A DNA stretch of 64,000 nucleotides from positions 1 through 64,000 of the forward strand of contig JAGIBP010000014.1 of NCBI GenBank assembly GCA_017744285.1, written 5' to 3'. The stretch is from Variovorax sp. (GTDB taxonomy: Bacteria > Pseudomonadota > Gammaproteobacteria > Burkholderiales > Burkholderiaceae_C). A program made the position numbers and the translations under genes. The notes under the pieces are model-generated. The model saw only the letters and a program-made list of their open reading frames with translations. It did no database searches and had not been told where the DNA came from. Shown here one piece after another: positions 7,981 to 54,131 of the stretch. The stretch's first letter is position 1. Every line of letters begins with the position of its first letter.

Positions 7981-8639
7981 CAGAATCGGTACCCGACACC
8001 CGCACCGAACAGCCAGGGATCGAGCTTCACGGTGGAGAGCCTGGCGCCGAACTGCGTCACGTCCGTGCGGATCTGGACCTTCTTGACGTCGAAGTTGAGG
8101 AAGACGTTCTTCGTGAGCGCGATGTCCACCCCGCCGCCCACCGCCAGGCCGAAGCTGTTGCGGTCGAGGTCCAGGGGGCCGACGGTCGGCACGAAGAGAT
8201 TCACCGAGCTGATGCGCGTGTAGTTCAGGCCCACGCCAGCATAGGGGCGGATCTTCGCCTCGGGCATGAAGTGGTACTGCAGCATCAGCGTCGGCGGCAG
8301 GTGCTTGAAGGTGCCGATATCCACCGGTCCGCCCAGCGCACTTTGCTGCACCGTCACCGTTTGCTTCTGCGGGACAGTCAATACCAACTCGGCTGCGAGG
8401 TTGGGCGTGAAGAAATAAGTGACGTCGATCTCGGGGATCGTCTTGTTGTTGACCGTGATGGCATTCGACGGAATGCCCAGCGACGGCACCGGATCGGACT
8501 TGTCGGCGGTGTCGATTCGCACGGCGCGGGCGCGCACCATCCACGAGCCTTGCGGCGCTTCCTGCGCGTCGGCGGGCATGGCGCACAGCGCGCCGAGGAT
8601 CGCGATGGCATTCCATGCGCGCGAACGTATCCTGTTCAT
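7980..8639 (-). CDS. ompW: OmpW family outer-membrane protein
   Basis: 219 residues. A signal peptide ends at ADA-QEA (about residue 26). The mature part is an 8-strand beta-barrel: EIDVTYFFTPNLAAELVLTV, PPTLMLQYHF, RPYAGVGLNYT and a C-terminal GAGVGYRF with the terminal aromatic needed for Bam-dependent insertion. OmpW proteins form narrow hydrophobic channels for small apolar molecules. It is the first gene of a two-gene leftward unit with the nitronate monooxygenase, whose start codon overlaps its stop. Confidence 0.9.
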   Translation of the reverse strand: MNRIRSRAWNAIAILGALCAMPADAQEAPQGSWMVRARAVRIDTADKSDPVPSLGIPSNAITVNNKTIPEIDVTYFFTPNLAAELVLTVPQKQTVTVQQSALGGPVDIGTFKHLPPTLMLQYHFMPEAKIRPYAGVGLNYTRISSVNLFVPTVGPLDLDRNSFGLAVGGGVDIALTKNVFLNFDVKKVQIRTDVTQFGARLSTVKLDPWLFGAGVGYRF

Positions 8640-8883
8640 GAATCAATCTACTCCTGAGTGGACCGGCATCGAGGGTGTGCCGGCAACCGCAGCGAGTGTC
8701 CGTGACGGGTGCGGCGCGCACCCTTGATGCATGACAAGGCCAGCCGCATCGCGCGCCCCGTTGGGGAGGGCGTTGATCCAGGTCAGCAGTTTGCGCACCC
8801 GGGTTTCACACACCGGGGCTTCCATCGAACCGGCCTGTCGGCGTATCGTGGCGGCTCCAACATCAACCTGGAGACATCGCACC

Positions 8884-9381
8884 ATGGCAACCAGCAGAAC
8901 GAGCACGACCGCCGCGAAGAAGGCGGGCTCCACGCGCGGCGGCAGCAGCGCGGCCGATGATGTGCAGGACGCCTTCGTCAGGCCGCTCAAGGGCATGGCG
9001 GAGCGGCTGCAGAACCTGCCGCTGGCGGGCGCGGCCGGCGCGATCGTGGAGAGCGGACGCAAGGACCTGCAGGCGCTCGTGCAGGCCAACGAGAAGTCCT
9101 ACCAGGGGCTGCAGGCGGTCGTGCAGCGGCAGACCGAGATGCTCAAGTCCTCCATCCAGGAATGGCAGAGCGCCGTCAAGGGCATGTCGGGGGGCGATCC
9201 GCGCGAGAACCTCTCCAAGCTCGATGCGATGGGGAAAGCGGCCTTCAAGCAGGCGCTGGACGACATCCGCGAACTGTCCGAAATGGCCGCGAGGTCGCAG
9301 TCCGAGGCTTTCGAGGTGGTGCGCAAGCGCATCGGCGAGAACGTGGACGAGGTGAGCAAGCTGTTGCGCAGCCGCAAATAG
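8884..9381 (+). CDS. Phasin family protein
   Basis: 165 residues, mostly helical. A low-complexity Ser/Thr/Ala head (1-22) precedes a long amphipathic region with heptad character: KGMAERLQNLPLAGAAGAIV, KDLQALVQANEKSYQGLQAV, and a tail RKRIGENVDEVSKLLRSRK. The motif QANEKSYQGLQAVVQRQTEM is typical of phasin_2-type polyhydroxyalkanoate granule coat proteins. Phasins coat PHA granules and control their number and size. ATG 8884 is preceded by GGAGA and starts where family members start; the longer in-frame extension to 8731 is not conserved in character. Confidence 0.8.
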   Translation: MATSRTSTTAAKKAGSTRGGSSAADDVQDAFVRPLKGMAERLQNLPLAGAAGAIVESGRKDLQALVQANEKSYQGLQAVVQRQTEMLKSSIQEWQSAVKGMSGGDPRENLSKLDAMGKAAFKQALDDIRELSEMAARSQSEAFEVVRKRIGENVDEVSKLLRSRK

Positions 9382-9505
9382 CCCCGCCCGGCGCCGGCCT
9401 CGGCGCTTGTCCTTCGCGAAAACGAGAAATACGCCCGTGACCTGACGCGCAGGAAGCGTACATTGGGCAGGTTTCCTCCAGCGATCCGACGATCACGAAT
9501 CAGCC

Positions 9506-9751
9506 ATGGCATCGATTTCTCAGACTCGCGCATCCTCGAAGGCGGACGCCGAAGCCGTCGAGCGTGAACGCTTGCGGCAGGCTCTGCCCGTCACGGTGGG
9601 GCACCTGCGGCAGCACCAGGCCGACCAGATCGACGACAACGACATCGAAGCCTACGTCCGGCTCAACTGGCTCGAATGGCATGGCGGCGGGTTGCGGCTC
9701 ACGATCACGGGCCGCAACGTCTGCGCGCAGGTGGCGCCCATCGCCCCCTGA
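9506..9751 (+). CDS. Small hypothetical protein
   Basis: 81 residues, no recognised domain. A charged N-terminal part (residues 9-40, rich in Glu, Arg and Gln) leads to YVRLNWLEWHGGGLRLTITGRNVC, which looks like a small beta-hairpin. No signal peptide or membrane segment is visible. Codon use matches the flanking genes and the frame has a clear start and stop, so I accept it as a gene with modest confidence. It converges with the RcnB-like gene 10 bases downstream. Confidence 0.5.
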   Translation: MASISQTRASSKADAEAVERERLRQALPVTVGHLRQHQADQIDDNDIEAYVRLNWLEWHGGGLRLTITGRNVCAQVAPIAP

Positions 9752-9760
9752 GATGCGCAG

Positions 9761-10165
9761 CTAGCTGCCGGCGATGATCTGCGCGATCAGGCCCGTGGCC
9801 ACGGCGGCGAGCACGAAGTCGCCCCCCACGCCCACCCACTGGTAGCCGCGCGGCGGCGCCTGCAGGCGGCGGGCGTGCCAGTCGTTGACCACGTAGGCGC
9901 GGCCCCGGTACGCGGTGGGCAGGCGGTCGCCGCGGTGCCATTGCGCGTAGGGTTGCACGTAGCCGTGGCGGATCACCTGGGGCTGTGGGCGAAAGCCCGG
10001 GCGGCCAGGGCCGTCGTAGCCGCGATGCTGCAGTTCGGGCCGGTCATGGGCGCCGCGGCGGTCCGGCCCGCGATCGAAGCGGCCGTCCTGCGCGAACGCG
10101 CTCCCCGCCATGCACATCGCCAGCGCGGCGGCGACGAAAGTCATGTGCTTCTTCGACTGGGTCAT
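9761..10165 (-). CDS. RcnB-like periplasmic protein
   Basis: 134 residues. The signal peptide is MTQSKKHMTFVAAALAMCMA followed by GSAFA. The mature N-terminal part is rich in Arg, Asp, Gly and His. The C-terminal part has YRGRAYVVNDWHARRLQAPP and YQWVGVGGDFVLAAVATGLI, the conserved RcnB block (W-x-x-x-L-x-x-P-x-x-G-x-x-W). RcnB family proteins are periplasmic and linked to nickel/cobalt homeostasis in E. coli. The start codon at 10165 is preceded by AAGGAG; a longer frame reaching 10558 is not needed. Confidence 0.78.
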   Translation of the reverse strand: MTQSKKHMTFVAAALAMCMAGSAFAQDGRFDRGPDRRGAHDRPELQHRGYDGPGRPGFRPQPQVIRHGYVQPYAQWHRGDRLPTAYRGRAYVVNDWHARRLQAPPRGYQWVGVGGDFVLAAVATGLIAQIIAGS

Positions 10166-10271
10166 GATGGAACTCCTTCTTCGTTGACGAGGAGTCCAGT
10201 GTGCGCAGCCCATGTAACGGCCAGGCCCCGCGACTGTCTCCGCGAGGTGAAGGAAGGTAAAGCGCGCCCGC

Positions 10272-10568
10272 TCAGGGCGCGCTGCCCTGCGGTCCGACGG
10301 CAGGCGCCGCGGCATGGCGACCGCCGGTCGCGGGCAGCTTGCGGCCCAGGCTTTCGCCCCAGCGCCGCACCGGCGCGCTCGCGCGCTCGGCCGTGTGGTT
10401 GACACCGCGCCGAGTGGCATCGGCGCCGCGCTCGATGCCGCGGCCGGTGGCGTTGGCACCCCGTTCGATGCCGCCGAGGACCTTGTTGTCGGTGGCGGCG
10501 AGGACGGCCGAAGGCAGCAGCAGGCCGGAGGCGGCCAGCGCGAAGCAGGCGCATGCAAGGAGTTTCAT
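10272..10568 (-). CDS. Small secreted protein with ERGA-type internal repeat, unknown function
   Basis: 98 residues from MKLLACACFALAAS. A signal peptide with a small-residue site (AVLAATD) is clear. The mature part contains GIERGANATGRGIERGADAT, an 11-residue unit repeated twice and echoed as RRGVNHTAER. The tail is Pro/Ala-rich and polar. I do not recognise a family. An in-frame ATG at 10586 adds six residues and is possible. It lies 27 bases downstream of the cobalamin adenosyltransferase gene on the same strand. Confidence 0.6.
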   Translation of the reverse strand: MKLLACACFALAASGLLLPSAVLAATDNKVLGGIERGANATGRGIERGADATRRGVNHTAERASAPVRRWGESLGRKLPATGGRHAAAPAVGPQGSAP

Positions 10569-10595
10569 CGTGTGAGGGAACTTCATTTCTCGATT

Positions 10596-11183
10596 TCAGG
10601 GGGCGGTGGATTCCCGTTCCTGCGCGGCGGCGCGTGCCATGCGTTCGCTCTTCCAATAGACGTCGTCGCCGCCGTCCACACGGTTGAGCACGCGCGCGAG
10701 CACGAACAGGAGGTCGCTCAGCCGATTGAGGTAGCGGCGCAGCGTGTCGTTGAGCGCGTCCTGCGCACCGAGGGCGACCACGGCGCGCTCGGCCCGGCGC
10801 GCCACGGTGCGGCACACATGCGCGAGCGATGCGCCGCGCGTGCCCGCCGGCAGGATGAATTCCGCCAGGCGGGGCAGCGTGGCATTGTGGTCGGCCAGGG
10901 CGTTGTCGAGTTGCAGCAGCGCCTCGGGCTTGAGCAGCGTGAACCCGGGCATCGACAACTCGCCGCCGAGGTTGAACAGCTGGTGCTGCACATCGACGAG
11001 CAATTCGCGCACGTCCGCCGGCAGCGGCTCGCAGAGCAGCACGCCGATGTGGGAGTTGAGCTCGTCGACGTCGCCCATGGCCTGCACGCGCAGGTGGTCC
11101 TTGCGGACCCGGGTGTTGTCGCCGAGGCCGGTCGTGCCGTCGTCGCCGGTGCGCGTCGCGATCTGGGAGAGGCGGTTGCCCAT
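10596..11183 (-). CDS. Cob(I)yrinic acid a,c-diamide adenosyltransferase, PduO type
   Basis: 195 residues. The ATP-binding head TRTGDDGTTGLGDNTRVRKD is diagnostic, followed by QAMGDVDELNSHIGVLL and, in the C-terminal helices, TVARRAERAVVALGAQD and LNRLSDLLFVLARVLN. The enzyme transfers adenosine from ATP to cob(I)alamin, making coenzyme B12. The start MGNRLSQIATRTG at 11183 places the ATP motif at residue 11 as in the family; a much longer upstream frame overlaps the divergent GlcD-like gene. No cobalamin riboswitch is visible in the 67-base gap. Confidence 0.94.
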   Translation of the reverse strand: MGNRLSQIATRTGDDGTTGLGDNTRVRKDHLRVQAMGDVDELNSHIGVLLCEPLPADVRELLVDVQHQLFNLGGELSMPGFTLLKPEALLQLDNALADHNATLPRLAEFILPAGTRGASLAHVCRTVARRAERAVVALGAQDALNDTLRRYLNRLSDLLFVLARVLNRVDGGDDVYWKSERMARAAAQERESTAP

Positions 11184-25593: not shown

Positions 25594-26337
25594 ATGCTTT
25601 TCAATCCCCGGATCCTGATCGCCGAGGACGAATCCGGCATTGCCGACACCCTGCAGTACGTGCTGCGCACCGACGGCTTCGCGCCGGTGTGGTGCGCGAC
25701 CGCGCAGGAGGCGATCGCGCAGTTCGTGGCCGAGCCGCCGGCGCTCGCGATCCTCGACATCGGCCTGCCGGACATGAACGGCTTCGAGCTCTTCAAGCGG
25801 CTGCAGGCCCTGCCCGGCGGCGCCGAGGTGCCGATGCTGTTCCTGACCGCGCGTAGCGACGAGATCGACCGCGTGGTCGGGCTGGAGCTCGGCGCGGACG
25901 ACTATGTCGCCAAGCCCTTCTCGCCGCGCGAACTGGTGGCGCGGGTGCGGACCATCCTGCGCCGCAGCGGCCGCCACGCAAACGGCGCGCCCGCCACGAC
26001 GCCTGCCGCCGCGCCTTCGCAAGCGCCCTCCCCCGGCCTGCCCTTCGCGGTCGACACCGAACGCATGCAGATCCGCTATTACGGCCGGCTGCTGGAGCTC
26101 TCCCGCTACGAGTACGGCCTGCTGCGCCTCATGGTCCAGCGGCCGGGCCGCGTCTTCACGCGCGACGAACTGCTGCGCCTGGTGTGGGACGAATCCAGCG
26201 AGAGCTACGACCGCACGGTCGACGCCCACGTCAAGACCCTGCGCGCCAAGCTCAAGGCGATCGCGCCGGACGTCGAAGCGATCCGCACGCTGCGGGGTAC
26301 CGGTTACGCGCTGAACGAAGAACTCCCGCCGGCCTGA
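25594..26337 (+). CDS. creB: Response regulator CreB
   Basis: 247 residues, OmpR family. Receiver: ILIAEDESGIADTLQYVLR, phospho-Asp in LAILDIGLPDMNGFELFKRL, and GADDYVAKPFSPREL. A 30-residue Ala/Pro linker precedes the winged-helix domain, which has LSRYEYGLLRLM, RPGRVFTRDELL and VDAHVKTLRAKLKAI. The ADTLQYVLRTDGF segment and the partner kinase point to CreB rather than another paralogue. In E. coli CreB binds TTCAC-N6-TTCAC. One such site lies at 32226-32241. creC starts 4 bases after the stop. Confidence 0.88.
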   Translation: MLFNPRILIAEDESGIADTLQYVLRTDGFAPVWCATAQEAIAQFVAEPPALAILDIGLPDMNGFELFKRLQALPGGAEVPMLFLTARSDEIDRVVGLELGADDYVAKPFSPRELVARVRTILRRSGRHANGAPATTPAAAPSQAPSPGLPFAVDTERMQIRYYGRLLELSRYEYGLLRLMVQRPGRVFTRDELLRLVWDESSESYDRTVDAHVKTLRAKLKAIAPDVEAIRTLRGTGYALNEELPPA

Positions 26338-26341
26338 CAGG

Positions 26342-27781
26342 GTGACGCGCAGAACACGCATCTTCATCGGCATCCTGCTGATCTACACGGCGGGCATCGC
26401 CTTGCTGCTGTATCGCGTGGTGTCCGACATCGACCCGCGCTACCGCGAGTCGGCGGAGGAATCGCTGGTCGAGACCTCGCAGCTCATGGCGAGCCTGATC
26501 GAGCAGGACGTGATCGCGGGCGCCATCAACATCTCGCGGCTCGAGCCGCTGTTCCGCTCGGTCTATGCGCGGCGCTTCTCGGCGCAGATCTACAACCTGC
26601 ACAAGAACCGGGTCGAGCTGCGCATGTACGTCACCGACCGCTCGGGCCGGGTCCTCTTCGACTCGCTGGGCCGCAACACCGGCGCCGATTTCTCGCAGCG
26701 CACCGACGTGAGCCGATCGCTGGCCGGGGTCTACGGTGCGCGCACCTCGCGCGACATCGCGAGCGATCCGCTCACCTCGGTGATGTACGTCGGCGCGCCG
26801 ATCCGATGGGGCAACGAGATCGTCGGCGTGGTCACGGTCGGCAAGCCGGTGCGCAGCTTCGGCCAGTTCGTGGAGGACGCGCGCGCGCGCACGCTGTGGG
26901 TGGGCGTGGGTTCGGCCTTCGCGCTGCTGGTGGGGGCGATCATCATCTCGATCTGGCTGGTGCGGCCGTTCGGGTTGATCTCGGACTACGTCGGCTGGCT
27001 GCGCAGCCAGCGCAGCCTGAGCCTCTCGCGCATGGTGCGGCGCGCGCTCGACACGCTGCGTGGCGGCCTGCGCGAGATGCGCGATGCGCTCACCGGCCGC
27101 AACTACGTGGCCGATTACGTGCAGACCTTCACGCACGAGGTGAAGAGCCCGCTGTCGGCGATCCGCGGCGCGGCCGAGCTGATCCAGGAGCCTTCGATGC
27201 CGCAGGCCGAGCGCGAGCGCTTTCTTGCCAACATCGCGCACGAGACGCAGCGCATCCAGGAAATCGTCGACCGCATGATGGAGCTCACCGCGCTCGAGAC
27301 GCGGCGTGCGCTCGAACGCAGCGAGCCGGTGGCACTGGCGCCGCTCCTGCGCGAGATCGGCGCGGGGGCGCAGGCGGCGGCCGCCCGGCGCGAGATCCGC
27401 ATCAACGTCGCGATCCACCACGAGGCGCGCGTCGAAGGCGATCCCTTCCTGCTGCGCCGCGCGATCAGCAACCTGCTCGACAACGCGATCGACTTCTCGC
27501 CGGACGGCGCCGAAGTGCTGCTCGCGCTGGAAGCCGAGGGCCGCCGCGCGCGGATCACCGTGCGCGACCGCGGCCCCGGCATTCCGGACTACGCGAAGGA
27601 CAAGGTCTTCGAGAAGTTCTATTCACTGGCGCGGCCGCACAGCCGCAAGAAGAGCACGGGCCTGGGCCTCGCCTTCGTGAAGGAGATCGCCGCCCTTCAC
27701 CGGGGCCGCGTGGAGCTGGTCAATGCGCCGCGAGGCGGCGCGCAGGCCACGCTCACCCTGCCGCTGCTTTCGCATCACTGA
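26342..27781 (+). CDS. creC: Sensor histidine kinase CreC
   Basis: 479 residues from GTG 26342. First membrane helix IFIGILLIYTAGIALLLYRV; periplasmic sensor (about 30-185) containing RLEPLFRSVYARRFSAQIYN and MYVTDRSGRVLFDS, typical of CreC; second helix near 185-205; HAMP. H-box YVQTFTHEVKSPLSAIRGAA; N box NLLDNAIDFSPDG; G boxes VRDRGPGIPDYAKDKVFEKF and STGLGLAFVKEI. It lacks an adjacent creD or creA. Stop overlaps by 7 bases the convergent gene 27775-28392. Confidence 0.9.
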   Translation: MTRRTRIFIGILLIYTAGIALLLYRVVSDIDPRYRESAEESLVETSQLMASLIEQDVIAGAINISRLEPLFRSVYARRFSAQIYNLHKNRVELRMYVTDRSGRVLFDSLGRNTGADFSQRTDVSRSLAGVYGARTSRDIASDPLTSVMYVGAPIRWGNEIVGVVTVGKPVRSFGQFVEDARARTLWVGVGSAFALLVGAIIISIWLVRPFGLISDYVGWLRSQRSLSLSRMVRRALDTLRGGLREMRDALTGRNYVADYVQTFTHEVKSPLSAIRGAAELIQEPSMPQAERERFLANIAHETQRIQEIVDRMMELTALETRRALERSEPVALAPLLREIGAGAQAAAARREIRINVAIHHEARVEGDPFLLRRAISNLLDNAIDFSPDGAEVLLALEAEGRRARITVRDRGPGIPDYAKDKVFEKFYSLARPHSRKKSTGLGLAFVKEIAALHRGRVELVNAPRGGAQATLTLPLLSHH

Positions 27782-28459: not shown

Positions 28460-28894
28460 TCAGCACTCGCCCTGGTCGCTCAGGCCGTAGGTGCATTCAA
28501 ACGGGTCGCGCCATGTGTAGCCCGGGTAGAACAAGGTGACCACATCCCCTGTGTCCCAGTACAGCGTGCCGGTGCCTCCGGAACTGATCTTCCAGTGGCC
28601 CCGTGTGTTGTCGCTGAATTCGACGACGCCCTTCGCATGGCACGGCGAATACCTGTCGTGTGCCCCGATCTTGGCTGGGACGGGATAGGCCTTCAGAAAG
28701 AAGCGAGCAACGTCGTTCCGGCTGACCCTGAAGGTCTTGCAGCCTTCACGCAGGTCTTCGTCGTCGCTCTTTCCAACTTCTTGAATCAGGACCCTGGTAA
28801 CGGTCCGCGGCTTCACGCGCGCTTGGGCAGTTGCTGCCGACATCGTGAGTGCGACGCATACGGCGGTCAGAAGCATCGAGGTCTTCATCACCAT
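28460..28894 (-). CDS. Secreted cysteine-containing protein, tandem paralogue B (possible immunity protein)
   Basis: 144 residues. Signal peptide MVMKTSMLLTAVCVALTMSA with AQARV cleavage. Mature part has four cysteines: GCKTF, YSPCHAKG, FECTYGL and the C-terminal GEC. It is clearly homologous to the upstream neighbour 28954-29397: CKTFRVSRNDVARFFLKA aligns with CKKFKPTKSQVLRFFKRA, and DPFECTYGLSDQGEC with DPYACTYGLGDEPEC. No known family is recognised. Base composition is lower in GC than the surroundings. Tandem periplasmic duplicates beside an hcp remnant are typical of type VI immunity arrays, but this is inference. Confidence 0.7.
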   Translation of the reverse strand: MVMKTSMLLTAVCVALTMSAATAQARVKPRTVTRVLIQEVGKSDDEDLREGCKTFRVSRNDVARFFLKAYPVPAKIGAHDRYSPCHAKGVVEFSDNTRGHWKISSGGTGTLYWDTGDVVTLFYPGYTWRDPFECTYGLSDQGEC

Positions 28895-28953: not shown

Positions 28954-29397
28954 TTAGCACTCGGGTTCGTCGCCAAGCCCGTAAGTGCATGCATAGGGGT
29001 CATGCCACCCATTTTTCCTATAGAACAGATCAATCACTACGCCATCGCCGAAAGTAACGTACGCCATTCCGCTGGAGAACAGAACCCACTGGCCCGAAGA
29101 TCCGTCGGTGTACCTGATCGTGCCTTCTGCGGCACACGAGGAGTAGCGCTCGTGTAACAGCTTAGATTTGTCCTCCGGCGGTTTAGCACGCTTAAAAAAG
29201 CGCAATACCTGACTCTTGGTCGGCTTGAACTTCTTGCACGCCCGTTCCTCATGTTCGTCATTCAGCGATTCATCATTCAGGCCAGTCGACTTTATTCGAA
29301 CATCGAGAATTTCTCTGGCGTAAAGCAGCCCAGGACCAGCCAAAGTTAGCGTAATTGCTACCCAGACGAAAGGCCGATACTTTTGCGGTTTCACCAT
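28954..29397 (-). CDS. Secreted cysteine-containing protein, tandem paralogue A (possible immunity protein)
   Basis: 147 residues. N-terminal hydrophobic segment FVWVAITLTLAGPGLLYA acts as a signal peptide. The mature protein has the same cysteine layout as the downstream paralogue: ACKKF, YSSCAAEG, YACTYGL and PEC at the C-terminus. Noticeably AT-richer than flanking genes (many Lys and Asn codons), suggesting recent transfer. It is preceded by the hcp stub, 15 bases away from its start side. A tryptophan/aromatic beta core (GQWVLFSSGMAYVTFGDGV) is shared with the paralogue. Function is not known. Confidence 0.7.
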   Translation of the reverse strand: MVKPQKYRPFVWVAITLTLAGPGLLYAREILDVRIKSTGLNDESLNDEHEERACKKFKPTKSQVLRFFKRAKPPEDKSKLLHERYSSCAAEGTIRYTDGSSGQWVLFSSGMAYVTFGDGVVIDLFYRKNGWHDPYACTYGLGDEPEC

Positions 29398-29650: not shown

Positions 29651-32032
29651 CTACCGGAAGAAATCGAGGATGCGACTGCGTTCCTCGGCAGCCGGCGGCG
29701 GGCCCACGGGTGCGCCGGCGAGCGCTTCGGCCGAGGTCGGCGCCTCGTTGTCGACGCCGAGGCTGGCGACGCCATGGCCCGGTCCGAACTCGTCGAAGTA
29801 CCACTCGCCGTCGACGTTCACGAGCCCGCCCGGCGCGCGCGGCTCGCTCACGGGCACGCCCTTGAGCGCCGTCTGCATGAAGCCGACCCAGATCGGCAGG
29901 CTCAGGCTGCCGCCGGTCTCGCCGCGCACGCCGAGCTGGCGGGGCGTGTCGTAGCCGATCCATGCGATGCCGACCATCGAAGGCTGGAAGCCCGCGAACC
30001 AGGTGTCGAAGGAATCGTTGGTGGTGCCGGTCTTGCCGAAGAGGTCATTGCGGCGCAGCGCCTGGCCGGCGCGGCTCGCGGTGCCGCCCTTGACCACGCT
30101 TTGCAGCAGCGAGCCCATCACGAAGGCATTGCGCTCGGGAATGGCGCGGCGGCTCTCGTCGAGCGCGGGCGCCTCGGTCTCGAGCAGGACCTTGTCCTTC
30201 ATGTCGGTGACGCGCGTGACCAGGTAGGGGTTCACGCGATAGCCGCCGTTGGCGAACACCGAGTACGCGGCCGCCATCTGCATCGGCGTCACCGAGCCCG
30301 CGCCGAGCGCCATCGGCAGGTTGGCCGGCTGCTTGTCGCGGTCGAAGCCGAAGCGCGTGACCCAGTCCTGCGCGAAGTCGACGCCGATGGACTGCAGCAC
30401 GCGGATCGTGACCATGTTCTTCGACTGCTGCAGCGCGCGGCGCAGCGTCATCGGGCCTTCGTAGGTGCCGTCGAAGTTCTTCGGCTCCCAGGCCTGCCCG
30501 CCGGGGCCGGCGTCGAAGTGCAGCGGCGCATCGTTGACGATGGTGCTCGGCGCGAAGCCTTTCTCCAGCGCCGCGGAATAAATGAACGGCTTGAAGCTCG
30601 ACCCCGGCTGGCGCCAGGCCTGCGTCACGTGGTTGAACTTGCTGCGTCCGAAGTCGAAGCCGCCGACGAGCGCCTTGATCGCGCCGCTCTTCGGGTCCAT
30701 CGCGATGAACGCGCCTTCGACCTCCGGCACCTGCGTGATCTCCCAGCCGCCCTTGGCGGTCTTCGCCACGCGGATCACCGCGCCGCGGCGGATCCTGATC
30801 GCGGCCGGCGCCTTCGCCGCCAGGCCCGACTGCGCGGGCCGCAGGCCTTCGCCGGTGATCTGCAGCGTCTCGCCGTTGGCGCGCACCGCGGTCACCTGCT
30901 TCGCGCTGGCGTCGAGCACCACGGCGGCGATCAGGTCGCCGTTGTCGGGGTGGTCGGCGAGCGCGTCGTCCACTGCATCGTCGAGTTCCTTCGGGTCGTC
31001 CGGCAGATCCGCGACGGCCTCCGGGCCCCGGTAGGGCTGGCGGCGTTCGTAGTCGAGGATGCCGCGCCGCAGCGACCGGTAGGCCGCCGCCTGGTCGCCG
31101 GCATCGAGCGAGGTGTAGACCTTCAGGCCGCTGGTGTAGATGCTGTCGCCGTACTGCGCATGCATCATCTGCCGCACGGTCTCGGCCACGTACTCGGCAT
31201 GCAGCCGGTCGGGGTCGGCGGCATCGCGCAGGTGCAGTTCCTCCTGCCTGGCCTGCTGCGCCTGCTCGGCCGTGATGAAGCCCGTCTCCTGCATGCGGTC
31301 GATCACGTAGAGCTGCCGCGCGCGCGCGCGGCGCGGATTGGCCACCGGGTTGTTCGTGCCCGGCGCCTTCGGCAGGCCCGCGAGCATCGCGGCCTCGGCG
31401 ATGGTCACCTTCTGCAGCGGCTTGCCGAAGTAGGTCTCGGCGGCAGCCGCGAAGCCATAGGCGCGATTGCCCAGGTAGATCTGGTTCAGGTAGATCTCGA
31501 GGATCTGGTCCTTCGTGAGCTCGCGCTCGAGCTGCATCGACAGCAGGATCTCGTAGGCCTTGCGGCTGAGCGTGCGCTCGGAGCTCAGGTAGACGTTGCG
31601 AGCGACCTGCATCGTGATCGTGGAGGCGCCCTGCTGCCGCCCGCCGCGCAGGCTCGAGAAGGCGGCGCGAACGAAGCCCTTGTAGTCGACGCCGCCGTGA
31701 TCGTAGAAGCGCGCGTCCTCGACGGCGAGCACGGCGTCCTTCATCACTTTCGGGATCTCCGCGAAGGGCGTGAGCGTGCGGCGCTCCTCGCCGAACTCGC
31801 CGATCAGGCTGCCATCTGCCGCGAACACGCGCAGCGGCAGCTTGGGCCGATAGTCGGACAGGTCGGAGACGCTCGGGAGCTTCGGGTAGATCACCGCGAC
31901 GGCGGTGGCCGCGCCGATCATGACGACGAGGGCGCCCGCCGCCACGGCGGCGCCGCCCCAGAGGGCGATGCGGCGCAGCCGGCGCGAGGGCGCCGAGCGG
32001 GCGCGCTCGCTGGAAGGTGTGGGTTTCAACAT
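29651..32032 (-). CDS. mrcA: Penicillin-binding protein 1A (bifunctional transglycosylase/transpeptidase)
   Basis: 793 residues. Membrane anchor at about 20-45. GT51 domain: AVEDARFYDHGGVDYKG, GASTITMQVARN, RKAYEILLSMQLERELTK and EIYLNQIYLGNRAYGFA. An OB-like insertion follows, with a long Asp-rich segment near 330-355. Transpeptidase: QPGSSFKPFIY (SxxK), SKN and KTGTT motifs. It polymerises and crosslinks peptidoglycan at the cytoplasmic membrane. A last motif QLGVRGETGGSLSLPIWVGF is typical. It is transcribed away from the exosortase operon, sharing the 313-base promoter gap. Confidence 0.95.
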   Translation of the reverse strand: MLKPTPSSERARSAPSRRLRRIALWGGAAVAAGALVVMIGAATAVAVIYPKLPSVSDLSDYRPKLPLRVFAADGSLIGEFGEERRTLTPFAEIPKVMKDAVLAVEDARFYDHGGVDYKGFVRAAFSSLRGGRQQGASTITMQVARNVYLSSERTLSRKAYEILLSMQLERELTKDQILEIYLNQIYLGNRAYGFAAAAETYFGKPLQKVTIAEAAMLAGLPKAPGTNNPVANPRRARARQLYVIDRMQETGFITAEQAQQARQEELHLRDAADPDRLHAEYVAETVRQMMHAQYGDSIYTSGLKVYTSLDAGDQAAAYRSLRRGILDYERRQPYRGPEAVADLPDDPKELDDAVDDALADHPDNGDLIAAVVLDASAKQVTAVRANGETLQITGEGLRPAQSGLAAKAPAAIRIRRGAVIRVAKTAKGGWEITQVPEVEGAFIAMDPKSGAIKALVGGFDFGRSKFNHVTQAWRQPGSSFKPFIYSAALEKGFAPSTIVNDAPLHFDAGPGGQAWEPKNFDGTYEGPMTLRRALQQSKNMVTIRVLQSIGVDFAQDWVTRFGFDRDKQPANLPMALGAGSVTPMQMAAAYSVFANGGYRVNPYLVTRVTDMKDKVLLETEAPALDESRRAIPERNAFVMGSLLQSVVKGGTASRAGQALRRNDLFGKTGTTNDSFDTWFAGFQPSMVGIAWIGYDTPRQLGVRGETGGSLSLPIWVGFMQTALKGVPVSEPRAPGGLVNVDGEWYFDEFGPGHGVASLGVDNEAPTSAEALAGAPVGPPPAAEERSRILDFFR

Positions 32033-32103: not shown

Positions 32104-32225
32104 AGCGCCGGCGGGAATAGGAGCAACCCTGCATTTTCTAGTTCCCGGCGCGGATCTCAAAAGGGCTTGCGCCCCAATGCTGATGCGCGCGGCGGAAGCC
32201 GGTGTGAAGTCCCTTGCGCGCGGAC

Positions 32226-32241
32226 TTCACACAGACTTCAC
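32226..32241 (+). promoter_or_regulatory. CreB-type operator (cre-tag)
   Basis: TTCACACAGACTTCAC, exactly TTCAC-N6-TTCAC, the cre-tag/Blr-tag recognised by CreB homologues in Enterobacteria and Aeromonas. It lies about 105 bases before the VIT/VWA gene. A TTCAC in the opposite orientation is at 32204-32208. CreB and CreC are encoded 5 kb to the left. Binding here is inferred. Confidence 0.55.
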
Positions 32242-32345: not shown

Positions 32346-34418
32346 ATGGAAGCTTCCATACCCCGCTCCGGCCGCTGGCTCTGGCTGGGCACGCTCGGCC
32401 TCGCCAGCGCCTGCTGCGCCCTGCTCATCGCGCGGCCCGTGCACGCGCAGCAGCAGGAGGCGCCGGGCCCGCGCCTCGCGACCGAGAGCCCGTACTTCTT
32501 CGTGAAGAGCGATGATCCGGAGGTCGATCGCCTGCCGCTCAAGGGCACCGAGGTCGACGTGAAGATCTCGGGCGTGATCGCCGACGTGACGGTCACGCAG
32601 ACCTACCGCAACGAAGGACGGCGCCCGATCGAGGCGGGCTACGTCTTTCCCGGATCGACGAAGGCCGCGGTCGGCGGGCTCAACGTGCGGCTGGGCGAGC
32701 GCCTCGTCACCGCGCAGATCCGCGAGAAGCAGCAGGCCCGCATCGAGTACGACAGCGCGAAGAAGGAAGGGAAGACGGCGGCCCTGCTCGAACAGCACCT
32801 GCCCAACGTGTTCCAGATGAACGTCGCGAACATCCTGCCGGGCGACGACGTGAAGGTCGAGCTGCGCTACACCGAGCTCCTGGTGCCGCAGGGCGGCAAC
32901 TACCGCTTCGTCTTTCCGGCGGTGGTCGGCCCGCGCTACAACAGCCCGCAGTCCGCGAACGCGCAGGCCGCCTGGGTCGCGCAGCCCATCCTGCGTGCGG
33001 GCGTCGCGCCGGACACCCGTTTCAAGCTCAAGGTGGCGATCGACACGCCGATGGGCATCAAGGAAGTGCGTTCGCTCACGCACGAGGTCGATGTGCAGCG
33101 CCGGGACGGCGACACGCATGCCGACATCGCGCTCGCGAGCGGCAACGGCCCGGCCGACAACCGCGACTTCGTGATGGACTGGCGGCTTGCCGGCGAGCGC
33201 GTCGAGTCGGGGCTGATGCTCTACGAGGGCCATGGCGAGAACGCCGAGAACTTCTTCCTCGCGATGGTGGAGCCGCCGAAGTCCGTGCCCGCGAACGCGA
33301 TCTCGCCGCGCGACTACATCTTCGTGGTCGACATCTCGGGCTCGATGCATGGATTTCCGCTGGACACGGCCAAGGCCACGCTGGAGCGCCTCATCGGGGG
33401 ATTGCGTCCGAGCGACAGTTTCAACGTGCTGCTGTTCTCGGGCAGCAACCGCATGCTTTCGCCGCACTCGGTGCCCGCGACGCGCGCCAACATCGAGCAG
33501 GCGCTGGCCACGCTGCGCAACTACAACGGCAGCGGCAGCACGGAGCTCATCCCCGCGTTGAAGCGCGCCTATGCCGAACCGAAGGCCGATGACGTGTCGC
33601 GCACCATCGTTGTCGTCACCGACGGCTACGTCACGGTCGAGCGCGAGGCCTTCGAGCTGGTGCGACGCAACCTCTCGAAGGCCAACCTGTTCGCCTTCGG
33701 CATCGGCTCGTCGGTCAACCGGCACCTGATGGAAGGCCTGGCACGCGCCGGCATGGGCGAGCCCTTCGTCATCACCGACCCGGTGCAGGCGCCGGAGCAG
33801 GCGGCGCGCTTCCGCCGCATGATCGAATCGCCGGTGCTCACCAGCGTGAAGGCGCGCTTCGAAGGCCTGGACGTCTACGACGTGGAGCCCGCCGCCCTGC
33901 CCGACGTGCTCGGCGAACGGCCGGTGATCGTGTTCGGCAAATGGCGCGGCGAGCCCCGGGGCCGCCTCGTCATCGAAGGCCGCGGCGCGAACGGCCCGTA
34001 CCGCCAGGTGCTCGAAGTCGACCCGCAGGGGCGCCGGGACGCCGCCGCGCTGCGCAGCCTGTGGGCGCGCCATCGCATCGAGCGCCTCGGCGACCAGGAG
34101 GCGCTGGAAGGCGGCGACGCGTATCGCCAGCGCATCACCGACCTGGGCCTGCGCTACAGCCTGCTCACGCCCTACACCAGCTTCATCGCGGTGGACCAGG
34201 TCGTGCGCCACCCCGCGCCGCAGAACAGCATCGGCGTCGACCAGCCGGTGCCGTTGCCCCAGGGCGTGAGCGAACTCGCGGTCGGCCAGGGCTTCGGCGC
34301 CGAAGTGCCGAGCACGCCCGAGCCGGAAACGCTCGGCGCGATCGCGGTCGTGCTCTCGGTGCTTGCGATGCTGCGCCGCCGTGCGCGTCGCCACGATGCA
34401 CGCCGCTTCACGGCCTGA
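32346..34418 (+). CDS. VIT/VWA domain protein with PEP-CTERM-like sorting tail (exosortase target)
   Basis: 690 residues. Signal peptide ends at HAQQQ (about residue 35). VIT domain about 45-170 (TQTYRNEGRRPIEAGYVFP; EKQQARIEYDSAKKEGKTAA). VWA domain about 320-495 with MIDAS DISGSMHG at 329-336. C-terminus: TPEPET at 657-662 (PEP at 658-660), hydrophobic LGAIAVVLSVLAML, then RRRARRHDARR. That is motif, membrane helix and basic tail, the layout of exosortase substrates. The same VIT/VWA architecture is the target of class GN sortases in marine proteobacteria; here the tail is PEP-CTERM-like instead. The exosortase gene follows 12 bases later. Role probably surface or envelope adhesion. Confidence 0.85.
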   Translation: MEASIPRSGRWLWLGTLGLASACCALLIARPVHAQQQEAPGPRLATESPYFFVKSDDPEVDRLPLKGTEVDVKISGVIADVTVTQTYRNEGRRPIEAGYVFPGSTKAAVGGLNVRLGERLVTAQIREKQQARIEYDSAKKEGKTAALLEQHLPNVFQMNVANILPGDDVKVELRYTELLVPQGGNYRFVFPAVVGPRYNSPQSANAQAAWVAQPILRAGVAPDTRFKLKVAIDTPMGIKEVRSLTHEVDVQRRDGDTHADIALASGNGPADNRDFVMDWRLAGERVESGLMLYEGHGENAENFFLAMVEPPKSVPANAISPRDYIFVVDISGSMHGFPLDTAKATLERLIGGLRPSDSFNVLLFSGSNRMLSPHSVPATRANIEQALATLRNYNGSGSTELIPALKRAYAEPKADDVSRTIVVVTDGYVTVEREAFELVRRNLSKANLFAFGIGSSVNRHLMEGLARAGMGEPFVITDPVQAPEQAARFRRMIESPVLTSVKARFEGLDVYDVEPAALPDVLGERPVIVFGKWRGEPRGRLVIEGRGANGPYRQVLEVDPQGRRDAAALRSLWARHRIERLGDQEALEGGDAYRQRITDLGLRYSLLTPYTSFIAVDQVVRHPAPQNSIGVDQPVPLPQGVSELAVGQGFGAEVPSTPEPETLGAIAVVLSVLAMLRRRARRHDARRFTA

Positions 34419-34430
34419 GGGGTGCGCGCC

Positions 34431-35333
34431 ATGTCTCTTGCCGCATTGGCTCAAACCCACCCGCGCGTGATCGATTGGGGCATTCGCCTGGACCGCGCAC
34501 CGGCCACGGCGTGGCTGGCCTTGCAGGCTGTCGCGCTCGCGCCGCACGCGCTGTGGATGGCGCGCCGCCTGCACGACGGCTCGGACGATCCGCTCGGGCT
34601 CCTGGCCTTGGCCGCACTGGCGGTGCTGGTGTGGCGCGCGAGACGGGAGCTGCGGCCCGCGCCGCGCCTGGGCTGGCTCGCGCTGGCCACCGCCGGCACG
34701 CTGGCTGCCGCGGTGCTGCGCACCGGCGTGGGTCCGCTGCCCGCGCTGCCGCCCCTGGCCGCGGCGCTGGCTGCGGTGCTGGCGCTGGCCTGCGGCCTGC
34801 TCGCCTTCCTGCCGCGGCGCATCGCCGGCCCGCCGGTCGTGCTGCTGGCGATGCTGGCCTTGCCGCTGCTGTCGTCCCTGCAGTTCTATGCGGGCTATCC
34901 GCTGCGCGTGGTCACGGCCGAAGCCAGCCGATGGCTGCTGATGGCTGGCTTCAGCGTGGCACGCGAAGGCAGCAGTCTTCTCGTCGACGGCCAGCTCGTG
35001 ATCGTCGATGCGCCCTGCTCCGGCGTGCAGATGGCGTGGCTCGGCTACTTCACCGCCTGCGTGGCCGGCTTGGGGTCGGGCCTCGAGGGCCGGCGTTTCC
35101 TCGCGCGGCTGCCCGCGGTGGGGCTGCTGGTGCTGGTCGGCAACATCCTGCGCAACAGCGTGCTGGTGGCGCTCGAAGCCGCGGGGCGGGTGCCGCCGCC
35201 CTGGCTGCACGATGCCTTCGGCCTGATGGTGCTCGCGCTGGTCTGCGGCGGCATCGCCTGGGTGATGGCCGGGCGCGCGAATTCCGGATCGATCACTTCC
35301 GTGGGAGGCCGCCATGTCGATACCGCTCTTTGA
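34431..35333 (+). CDS. Exosortase/archaeosortase family transpeptidase
   Basis: 300 residues, about eight hydrophobic segments, inner membrane. Catalytic triad by motif: Cys196 in DAPCSGVQMAW, Arg241 in GNILRNSVLV, His260 in WLHDAFGLMV. Exosortases cleave the PEP-CTERM tail and are thought to transfer the protein to another envelope molecule. The ATG at 34431 follows GAGGGG; a GTG at 34422 is possible. It sits right behind its likely sole substrate and overlaps the EpsI-like gene by 20 bases. I do not assign a numbered subtype (Xrt letter), since this needs a model search. Confidence 0.88.
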   Translation: MSLAALAQTHPRVIDWGIRLDRAPATAWLALQAVALAPHALWMARRLHDGSDDPLGLLALAALAVLVWRARRELRPAPRLGWLALATAGTLAAAVLRTGVGPLPALPPLAAALAAVLALACGLLAFLPRRIAGPPVVLLAMLALPLLSSLQFYAGYPLRVVTAEASRWLLMAGFSVAREGSSLLVDGQLVIVDAPCSGVQMAWLGYFTACVAGLGSGLEGRRFLARLPAVGLLVLVGNILRNSVLVALEAAGRVPPPWLHDAFGLMVLALVCGGIAWVMAGRANSGSITSVGGRHVDTAL

Positions 35334-35886
35334 CCGCTGGTTCGCGAACCGATTCGTCAACCGCATCGCGCACAAGGCGGCGTTCGCCTCGGCGATGCTG
35401 CTGTGCGTGCTGTGGTCGGCGGCGTCCGCCCTTCACGGCGGCGCGGAGCCGGGCAGGGACACGAGCTTCCAGGAATGGCCCGCCGAATGGGAAGGCGCGC
35501 CGCTGCGCCCGCTGGCGCTCAGCGAGGTCGAGCATCGCTTCGCCGACCGCTTCCCGGGCGCGATCGCCCGCATGACCGACGGGCGCCAGATGCTCGTCAT
35601 GCGCCGCGTCGACACGCCCACCCGCATGCTGCATCCGGCCGCGGACTGCTACCGCGCGCTCGGCTACGGCATCGCGCAGGCCCGGCTCGAGCAGGATGTG
35701 CATGCCCGACTGTGGCGCTGCTTCGTCGCCCAACGCCATGGCGGGCAGAAATTGCACGTCTGCGAGCGCATCGTCGATGCCGGGGGCGCCGCTTTCACCG
35801 ACACTTCAGCCTGGTACTGGGCGGCAGCCAGCGGGCGGTCGAACGGCCCCTGGCAAGCTGTGACCCTGGCAAGACCCATCGAGTGA
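35314..35886 (+). CDS. EpsI-like exosortase-associated protein
   Basis: 190 residues. One N-terminal membrane helix (AAFASAMLLCVLWSAASALH) and a periplasmic domain. PTRMLHPAADCYRALGYGI aligns in place with the HSPxxCYPxxGW-type segment of EpsI proteins, usually fused to or next to exosortases. Four other Cys (WRCFV, LHVCERI) are present. Its gene begins within the exosortase gene (20-base overlap) and is 7 bases from the next gene, so the three are co-transcribed. Annotation by context and this one motif; no strong domain match claimed. Confidence 0.7.
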   Translation: MSIPLFDRWFANRFVNRIAHKAAFASAMLLCVLWSAASALHGGAEPGRDTSFQEWPAEWEGAPLRPLALSEVEHRFADRFPGAIARMTDGRQMLVMRRVDTPTRMLHPAADCYRALGYGIAQARLEQDVHARLWRCFVAQRHGGQKLHVCERIVDAGGAAFTDTSAWYWAAASGRSNGPWQAVTLARPIE

Positions 35887-35893
35887 GAGAGAT

Positions 35894-37168
35894 TTGCTGA
35901 AGAAGGCCCTGATCTATCTGTTTTTCGTGATCCTGGCGCTGGTGCTCACGGCAGGCGTCGCGGCGTACCTGATCGTGCGGCTCGCCCTCGCGCCCGGCCC
36001 CGACGAATGGCCCGCGCGGGTCCAGGCCGGGCCCCTGGCCTTCGATGTCGGCGTGCCCACCGCCATCCGGCTCGCGACCTCGTCATGGTTCGCGCCGTGG
36101 ATCGCGGGTCGCACGCTCGACACCGGCTTCGGCCCCGTGACCTTCGGCTGGGACGAGCCCTCCGGCACGCTCGAACTGCAATGCGCGCCCTGCAGCGCCA
36201 CGGTGCATTCGCTGGGCAAGGCGCCGATCCGCGTCGATCGCCTCAAGGCCACCGTGCGCCGGGATGCCGGCACGCTCGGCGGCGTGCTGGAGGCCTCGGC
36301 GCCCGGCGCGGTGGCGGCGGAAGGCAGCGGCAGCGTCGTGCTCCACGGGCGCTGGGACGGGCGATTGACGCAGAAAAGCCTGCAACTCGACATCCGCGCC
36401 GATGACGCACCGATCGCACACTGGTATGCGGTGCTCGCGCCCGACCTGCCCGAACTCAAGCATGCGCGCATCGGCGGCACCATGGGCCTGCGCGCGCAGG
36501 TGGGGCTGCCGGGTGGGGCCTATTCGCTGCATCCGCGGATCGAAGGCTTCACCGTCGACGGACTGGGCACCGAGGCGATCGCCAATGCGCGCACCAGCTG
36601 CGGGCCCGCGAGCCGCCTGGGCAGCGAAAGCTGGCTGGCCCGCGCGGTCATCTCGGCCGAGGATCAGCGCTTCTTCAACCATCCTGGCTACGACCTGACC
36701 GAGCTCGCGGCCTCGCTGGAAGCCAACCAGAAGGCGTCGCGCACCGAGCGCGGCGGCAGCACGATCACGCAGCAGCTGGCCAAGATCCTGGTGACCGGCG
36801 GCGAGCAGAACGCCGAGCGCAAGCTGCGCGAGCTGCTCTACGCGGTCGAGATGGAGCAGACGCTGGGCAAGATGCGCATCCTGCAGCTCTACCTCGACAA
36901 CGCGCCGTGGGGTGCACGCATTTGCGGCGCCGAGACCGCGGCGCGCACCTATTTCAAGCGCCCGGCGCGCAACCTCGAACCGGTGCAGGCGGTCTGGCTC
37001 GCGTCCATGCTGACCAATCCGGCGTTGGCGGTGCGCAAGTGGCAGCAGGACGGGAACATCAACGTCGACCGTGCCACCCGGGTGGCCGAAGGCGTGCGCG
37101 GCATCAGCAAGGTGCAGCGCGACGCCCTGCTCAAGAGCGTCGCGGCGGCCAGGTTTCCCGCGCCATAG
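35894..37168 (+). CDS. Monofunctional biosynthetic peptidoglycan glycosyltransferase (GT51)
   Basis: 424 residues starting with TTG. N-terminal membrane helix (LIYLFFVILALVLTAGVAAYL); a periplasmic region of about 200 residues with no known domain (about 40-240); then GT51: ISAEDQRFFNHPGYD with catalytic Glu256, GGSTITQQLAKIL, RKLRELLYAVEMEQ and LQLYLDNAPWGA. No transpeptidase domain. The extra N-terminal domain is unusual for a monofunctional enzyme. As the last gene in the exosortase operon it may supply or modify the acceptor glycan for the sorted protein, which is speculation. Confidence 0.85.
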   Translation: MLKKALIYLFFVILALVLTAGVAAYLIVRLALAPGPDEWPARVQAGPLAFDVGVPTAIRLATSSWFAPWIAGRTLDTGFGPVTFGWDEPSGTLELQCAPCSATVHSLGKAPIRVDRLKATVRRDAGTLGGVLEASAPGAVAAEGSGSVVLHGRWDGRLTQKSLQLDIRADDAPIAHWYAVLAPDLPELKHARIGGTMGLRAQVGLPGGAYSLHPRIEGFTVDGLGTEAIANARTSCGPASRLGSESWLARAVISAEDQRFFNHPGYDLTELAASLEANQKASRTERGGSTITQQLAKILVTGGEQNAERKLRELLYAVEMEQTLGKMRILQLYLDNAPWGARICGAETAARTYFKRPARNLEPVQAVWLASMLTNPALAVRKWQQDGNINVDRATRVAEGVRGISKVQRDALLKSVAAARFPAP

Positions 37169-52955: not shown

Positions 52956-54131
52956 ATGAACCCCTCGACCAAAGCTTCGACCGCCCTGCTCGCGCTGGCC
53001 ACCGGCGCATTCGCGATCGGCACCACCGAATTCACCCCCATGGGCCTGCTGCCCGTCATCGCCGACGGCGTGGGGGTGGACATTCCCACCGCCGGCATGC
53101 TGGTCTCCGCCTACGCGGTGGGCGTCATGGCGGGCGCGCCGGCCATGACCCTGCTGTTCAGCCGCTTCGGCAAGCGCGCGGCGCTGATGGGGCTGATGCT
53201 CATCTTCACGCTCGGCAACCTGCTGTCGGCGCTGGCGCCGGGCTACACGACGCTGCTGCTGTCGCGCCTGGTCACCAGCCTCAACCACGGCGCCTTCTTC
53301 GGCATCGGAGCCGTGGTCGCCGCCAGCCTTGTGCCCAAGGACAGGCAGGCCAGCGCCATCGCGGCCATGTTCATGGGCCTCACGGTCGCCAACGTCGGGG
53401 GCGTGCCGGCGGCGACCTGGATCGGCCAGCAGGTCGGCTGGCGCCTGGCCTTCGGCGGCACGGCCGTGCTGGGGCTCGTCACCATCGCCGCGCTGTGGCT
53501 GGCGCTGCCTGCGGGCGAGCCCGGCGTGCGCCCGGACGTGCGGCGCGAGCTGAAGGTGCTCGCCCGCCGCGATGTGCTGCTCGCCATGGGCACGACGGTG
53601 CTGGGCTCCGGCGCGATGTTCGCGCTCTACACCTATGTGGCGCCGATGCTGGCCCACATCACGCAGGCCAGCCCCGGCTTCGTCGCCTTCGCCCTGGTGC
53701 TGATCGGCATCGGCTTCACGCTGGGCAACAGCCTGGGCGGCCGACTGGCCGATTGGTCCCTGGACGGCGCGACCAAGCTGATCCTCGCGGCGCTCGCCGC
53801 CGTGATGCTCGCGCTGCCGCTCTTGCTCGCGACGCATGTGGGCGCGGCGATCGGGCTCGTGGTCTGGGGCGCACTCGCCTTCGGCATCGTGCCGCCCGTG
53901 CAGATGCGCGTCATGCAGGCCGCGGCGCAGGCGCCCGGCCTCGCCTCGTCGGTCAACATCGGCGCGTTCAACCTGGGCAACGCGCTGGGGGCCGCGCTCG
54001 GAGGCTTGGTCATCGGCCAGGGGCTGGGCTACGCCGCCGTTCCCCTGGTGGGGGCCGCACTCGCCGCCGCCGGCCTGGGCCTGGTCTGGCTGGGCCAGGC
54101 GAGCCGCGGCCGTGCGGTGGCGAGCGCCTGA
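52956..54131 (+). CDS. MFS transporter, DHA1-type (AraJ/YdhP-like efflux)
   Basis: 391 residues with twelve helices. [20 protein letters not shown] (helix 1) and [20 protein letters not shown] are the DHA1/AraJ signature, and [20 protein letters not shown] is the helix 4 motif. Sugar or drug efflux is typical of the family. It begins a two-gene unit with the aldo/keto reductase 44 bases downstream. Confidence 0.9.

Follow-up and report, generated by a model that had tools for sequence, protein, structure and literature searches.

Why should a bacterium keep a cell-wall polymerase in one operon with a protein-sorting enzyme and the surface protein that this enzyme is predicted to sort, and what would switch such an operon on? 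The question is raised by a 64,000-nucleotide stretch of DNA from Variovorax sp. (assembly GCA_017744285.1, contig JAGIBP010000014.1; hereafter the window, meaning the whole of this stretch), in which four co-directional genes at 32346-37168 encode a VIT/VWA surface protein, an exosortase, an EpsI-like protein and a GT51 glycosyltransferase. An original prediction, made before any database search, had described the four as a dedicated exosortase system. By examining profile matches, related loci and the upstream sequence, we arrive at a reading that we consider rather probable: the genes form a dedicated one-substrate exosortase Q (XrtQ) module within the cell-wall-stress regulon of the two-component system CreBC. 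This reading is favored because the operon is conserved, one exosortase is paired with one substrate, the GT51 active site is intact, creBC lies nearby, and a putative regulatory repeat (TTCAC-N6-TTCAC, the CreB tag) is nearly universal before the operon.

The four-gene module and its single substrate

Relatives were collected by a pattern scan of one genome per species across 84,980 species; 156 were confirmed with an exosortase, and the best 80 of these were analyzed (loci are cited by our own L numbers). Among the 80 exosortases 79 are distinct, L061 and L062 having the same one, and the closest named relatives at the XrtQ locus are Variovorax. All four predicted open reading frames are present in the window, and the survey of genomes that the original prediction had proposed showed that 75 of the 80 related loci have the same four genes, co-directional and in the same order, so the set is not a product of chance; in three of the five exceptions (L041, L043 and L054) contig ends interrupt it.

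The first gene (32346..34418, + strand) encodes a protein of 690 amino acids with a VIT domain at residues 65-175 (Pfam VIT, 114 bits) and a VWA domain with DISGSM at 329 (VWA_3, 67.1 bits). Against TIGR03788, the model for the marine proteobacterial sortase target, it scores 420.4 bits over residues 68-671, below the cut-off of 551.65. Near its C-terminal end stands VPSTPEPETLGAIAVVLSVLAMLRRRARR, in which an STPEP sorting motif (34311..34325, +) is followed by a membrane helix and a basic tail, the arrangement that had been predicted. This tail, which might have failed every sorting-signal model, narrowly passes the PEP_CTERM model TIGR02595 (17.3 bits, cut-off 16); P658-E659-P660 and the MIDAS residues are invariant in 80 aligned VIT/VWA proteins, and the motif reads STPEP in 75 of the tails from 79 loci, GAPEP in L076, and ATPEP in L079, L080 and L083.

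The second gene (34422..35333, +) is recognized by the NCBIfam model for exosortase Q (NF012182, 373.7 bits, cut-off 270), the XrtN, XrtO and XrtT models giving 35 to 43 bits; in Pfam it matches Exosortase_EpsH. Its predicted catalytic triad, Cys196/Arg241/His260, is invariant in 81 aligned exosortases; the numbering counts from the ATG at 34431, by homology the likelier start, and becomes C199/R244/H263 from the GTG at 34422 of the annotated open reading frame. The third gene (35314..35886, +; 190 amino acids) overlaps the exosortase gene by 20 nucleotides, as had been claimed, and the label EpsI-like needs a different footing: no EpsI profile was found at E<=1 in Pfam or NCBIfam scans, Pfam gave QslA only (E 0.058), and we keep the label because the protein matches the C-terminal part of the exosortase T model (positions 296-446; NCBIfam, 37.1 bits) and because XrtQ and an EpsI-like domain are fused in one protein beside the VIT/VWA gene in L099 (G315) and L107 (G477).

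The window genome (4.09 Mb in 107 contigs, 69% complete) has one exosortase and one PEP-CTERM match over the cut-off, namely the VIT/VWA protein. The multitude of further PEP-CTERM proteins on which a one-substrate system might have foundered did not appear: a second candidate, in the window at 53540-53614 (-), was rejected at 13.7 bits, below the cut-off and with no membrane helix by eye, and a third match (C11) reaches 12.1 bits (cut-off 16). Across the genus, exactly one exosortase match was found in 34 of 37 genomes and none in the other three, and of ten genus genomes with at most four contigs, six have one and four have two PEP-CTERM matches at E<=1. Such matches number up to 85 in other families of the order, so the search is able to reveal many. 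We regard the four-gene module and its predicted one-substrate sorting as well supported.

The GT51 protein: partner or passenger

The fourth gene (35894..37168, +) begins with TTG, 7 nucleotides after the EpsI-like stop, and encodes a membrane-anchored protein of 424 amino acids consisting of a helix (residues 2-32), an orphan beta domain (about 40-225) and, in the C-terminal half, the GT51 catalytic domain (247-379; 36632..37030, +). Its score against Pfam Transgly (PF00912), the GT51 fold and two catalytic glutamates place it in GT51, and to judge by the fold and active site it is likely to polymerize lipid II. It had been described as a monofunctional peptidoglycan glycosyltransferase within 7 bases of the preceding gene. 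The family and the spacing hold, but a plain monofunctional enzyme it is not: it shares the fold and catalytic glutamates with the monofunctional transglycosylases of TIGR02070, yet falls short of that equivalog (132.6 bits, cut-off 182.65) and differs by an N-terminal part of about 245 extra residues, containing the orphan domain, for which a scan of the window protein gave no Pfam match; an AsmA/YhdP-like fold is at most a tentative candidate for the orphan domain. The orphan domain has an invariant CxxC pair (C97 and C100), and two further cysteines are invariant, C236 near the GT51 domain and C344 inside it; these cysteines may form disulfides.

Does this polymerase belong to the module? 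It is conceivable, if on balance unlikely, that the module consists of XrtQ, its substrate and its helper, that the presence of a GT51 gene and of a CreB tag in the operon is coincidental, and that the GT51 protein is a spare polymerase unlinked to sorting. Some relatives do sort, it would seem, without it: L045 and L076 have the VIT/VWA, XrtQ and EpsI-like genes with no GT51 gene within 6 kb downstream, and L099 and L107, with the fused XrtQ-EpsI protein, have none in the stretch covered. GT51 is probably dispensable for sorting, to judge by L045 and L076, where the rest of the module is complete. Against a mere spare, however, stand the 75 of 80 loci in which GT51 follows, mostly closely spaced (the gap in L042 is about 600 nucleotides), and the distribution of its N-terminal domain, found, with the best candidates per genome scored, in 4 of 300 Burkholderiales genomes, all four among the seven with an XrtQ match. 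Taken together these two observations make the polymerase seem module-specific, and the earlier idea of a polymerase built into the module survives in the form of a standing member in this lineage. The wider idea that GT51 accompanies VIT/VWA sorting in general found no support: 20 loci picked by TIGR03788 alone (from 20 of 43 genomes with a match, 16-17 kb each) contain no GT51 and no exact CreB tag, and GT51 is also lacking in L097, L098, L099, L107, L108, L109 and L110.

A closer partnership, which we think quite improbable, would make lipid II the acceptor to which XrtQ passes the VIT/VWA protein, the resulting unit then being polymerized into the wall by the GT51 protein, by analogy with Gram-positive sortases and penicillin-binding proteins (PBPs). 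The apparently module-specific partner fits such a scheme, as do the published statements that CreBC answers wall stress (PMC2654508) and that proteins processed by sortase become linked to lipid II (PMC1569441). On the other side, relatives without GT51 exist; attachment of the sorted VIT/VWA protein to nascent peptidoglycan is speculation.

CreBC and the tag before the operon

The preferred reading, a one-substrate XrtQ module under CreBC, draws on the upstream sequence as well. About 5 kb before the operon are creB (25594..26337, +), encoding a response regulator (NF008296, 305.7 bits, cut-off 273; 47% identity to E. coli CreB over 234 columns), and creC (26342..27781, +), encoding a sensor histidine kinase (NF008312, 574.2 bits, cut-off 356), both over the equivalog cut-offs. 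The CreB tag TTCACACAGACTTCAC (32226..32241, +), an exact TTCAC-N6-TTCAC, lies 105 nucleotides before the ATG of the VIT/VWA gene; it is the sole exact site in the window and one of three in the genome, where the reversed pattern has two sites. An inverted half-site, GTGAAG (32204..32209), precedes it by 22 nucleotides, and 47 of the 77 exact-tag loci have GTGAAG at most 60 nucleotides ahead of the tag.

This placement is nearly universal among the relatives. A VIT/VWA gene is present in 79 loci, and in 77 of these an exact tag lies at most 500 nucleotides upstream of the VIT/VWA match; the 80 loci, 1,134,750 bases scanned on both strands, contain 81 exact tags, every one of them upstream of the VIT/VWA gene and pointing at it. 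The weight rests on the 77 of 79, because in a set of 34 dissimilar upstream regions (the window included) that were selected for the tag, the half-site conservation of 1.0 follows from the selection; mean conservation there is 0.82 in the spacer and 0.50 in the flanks. Beyond the 80, the tag also precedes the VIT/VWA gene in L096 and L101, two XrtQ-type loci with GT51, while L100 has the tag but the same exosortase as L047 and so adds no new case. The same pattern occurs 62 nucleotides before creD in E. coli MG1655, and PMC2654508 cites a paper titled for the "cre/blr-tag". Motif and linkage together strongly suggest CreBC control of the operon.

Several points nevertheless weigh against this reading, in addition to the relatives without GT51, where the tag is retained by L045 and L076 and, in exact form, missing from the stretch covered in L099 and L107. 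TTCAC-N6-TTCAC is only presumably CreB's site, and the E. coli creD site lies within the range of shuffled sequence, 76 of 200 shuffles having matched with one mismatch allowed. The 80 related loci are mostly Variovorax and not independent; the tag of L050 has one mismatch, L069 has none in the roughly 180 nucleotides of upstream sequence covered, and creD gave no match in the 69% complete window genome. The tag is not exclusive to the XrtQ operon either, a possibility that we rejected: 41 genus genomes contain 222 exact sites, versus 78 for the reversed pattern, and of 19 stretches around genus tag sites (picked mostly for likeness to the XrtQ-operon tag, and annotated by eye from protein starts) two are VIT/VWA operons and 9 of the 17 others lie by a FAD-dependent oxidoreductase gene. 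Finally, PMC2654508 characterizes CreBC of E. coli as regulating metabolism globally, so the signal in a host of the XrtQ operon may differ.

The other tag sites merit description of their own. An exact tag lies near the start of the FAD-dependent oxidoreductase gene (VDLLVVGASFAGLACARA or similar) in L180-L184, L186-L188 and L190, and this gene may, by the same motif, be another CreB target; in L191-L193 and L194-L195, exact tags lie close to a small membrane protein (MDNGH...) and to the start of an open frame of about 1000 amino acids (MLQVANRKLAS...). In L097 the tag stands just before the gene for an 823-amino-acid membrane VIT protein (8464-10956, -), and genes for a distant exosortase and an EpsI-like protein come after it. 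That exosortase scores 129.1 bits against the XrtQ model, below the cut-off, and the VIT protein has VPEPETW close to its end and is similar to XrtN targets (114.6 bits, cut-off 250), so that the tag may reach beyond XrtQ systems. The tag of L098 is similar to that of L097.

At least one of creB, creC and creD was found in 75 of the 80 flanks (creD in 52, creC in 36, creB in 10); in L034, L041, L043 and L069 hardly any upstream sequence is available, and L057 has none of the three. The divergent neighbor in the window is a PBP1A-type class A PBP (29651..32032, -; Pfam Transgly, Transpeptidase and PCB_OB), which is present in 67 of the 80 flanks and here occupies the position that creD takes beside the VIT/VWA gene in many relatives. 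Between creC and the PBP1A gene lie two related-looking small proteins without a Pfam match (28463-28894 and 28957-29397, both -), ending ...CTYGLSDQGEC and ...CTYGLGDEPEC. That creD adjoins the operon in 52 of the 80 loci, divergently where inspected, could be taken to mean that the TTCAC repeats belong to, or are left over from, a divergent creD promoter beside creD/mrcA-type genes and do not control the operon. This is very unlikely, since all 81 sites in the 80 loci have the direct repeat oriented toward the VIT/VWA gene, and since the repeat is kept where creD was not found in the flank (the window, L005-L010, L081, L082 and L084), in L096 and L101, which have no creB, creC or creD match, and before the VIT protein of L097, also without cre matches.

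Known systems and what the module may mean

How much of this is new? Proteins of the VIT/VWA family are reported to end in one of three ways: in GlyGly-CTERM, in LPXTG accompanied by its own sortase, or in PEP-CTERM with an exosortase, as in Verrucomicrobium (PMC3237569). The claim that an exosortase has replaced the sortase for a VIT/VWA protein loses weight as a novelty: in Verrucomicrobium spinosum, too, an exosortase is reported to sort such a protein, GT51 and CreBC going unmentioned in the part of that account that deals with it (PMC3237569), and the exosortase in the window is the already named XrtQ. Its model, NF012182, covers the exosortase alone; GT51 and the CreB tag are known from the loci described here.

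The proteobacterial dedicated sortase system (TIGR03788 target, class GN sortase TIGR03784, kinase TIGR03785 and regulator TIGR03787) is alike in combining the VIT/VWA family with its own two-component system; here, by contrast, the sorting enzyme is an exosortase and the two-component system is CreBC, the window CreB and CreC scoring 133.7 and 98.1 bits against the TIGR03787 regulator and TIGR03785 kinase models, far below the cut-offs. Seven of the 20 TIGR03788 loci have a regulator 30-38% identical to CreB, and among the seven L158 belongs to an exosortase T system (687.3 bits). The original prediction had set the sortase version apart as the one with its own two-component system, a contrast that is weakened now that creBC and the CreB tag are seen to accompany the exosortase module. 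Two other exosortase systems come near: the XrtN system (TIGR04476, TIGR04477) likewise pairs a VIT-domain protein with an exosortase, but the exosortase N model gives 35 bits here (cut-off 200); exosortase T (NF033770; 36.5 bits, cut-off 250) has inside its model the EpsI-like part that is a separate gene in the window.

On the regulatory side, the window resembles the CreBC (BlrAB) regulon of E. coli, Pseudomonas and Aeromonas in its CreB and CreC equivalogs, in a tag like that before E. coli creD, and in the creD gene adjacent in many relatives, and differs in what follows the tag, an exosortase operon that includes a wall polymerase. For Pseudomonas aeruginosa it is reported that loss of PBP4 activates CreBC and that cefoxitin induces creD; the mechanism by which CreBC acts in the beta-lactam response is called "still uncertain", CreD not being its sole driver (PMC2654508). 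A literature search found no publication pairing an exosortase with a transglycosylase in Variovorax and none on XrtQ by title, the CreBC link lying outside that search, and a search for exosortase with VIT domain found no publication under that pairing. The kind of system is known; CreB control and a dedicated GT51 protein with an orphan domain are the new part, and we claim no priority for the CreBC link.

If the operon does belong to the CreBC regulon, its action might run as follows. CreC would sense disturbed wall synthesis, as on PBP4 loss in Pseudomonas, and CreB would bind the tag, so that the operon is expressed. The VIT/VWA protein would be exported and retained in the membrane by its C-terminal helix, until XrtQ and the EpsI-like helper cleave it at STPEP and transfer it to an acceptor at the cell surface; the GT51 protein would meanwhile polymerize lipid II alongside the class A PBPs and sustain glycan synthesis. 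Wall stress would in this way call forth both a surface protein for adhesion or scaffolding and additional wall polymerase.

To our knowledge, the acceptor and the role of bacterial exosortases are still open. A bolder scheme, to which we assign little likelihood, is a Gram-negative counterpart of sortase anchoring, in which CreBC-induced XrtQ would move the VIT/VWA protein to lipid II or a short glycan and the GT51 protein, steered by its orphan domain, would insert the unit into peptidoglycan. Were this true, the acceptor of a bacterial exosortase would be named, and CreBC would gain a direct wall-repair output. In these culturable soil bacteria one exosortase, its one substrate, a polymerase for the wall and a regulator that answers stress come together at one promoter, and because the module has one substrate, its cleavage, acceptor and purpose are directly testable.

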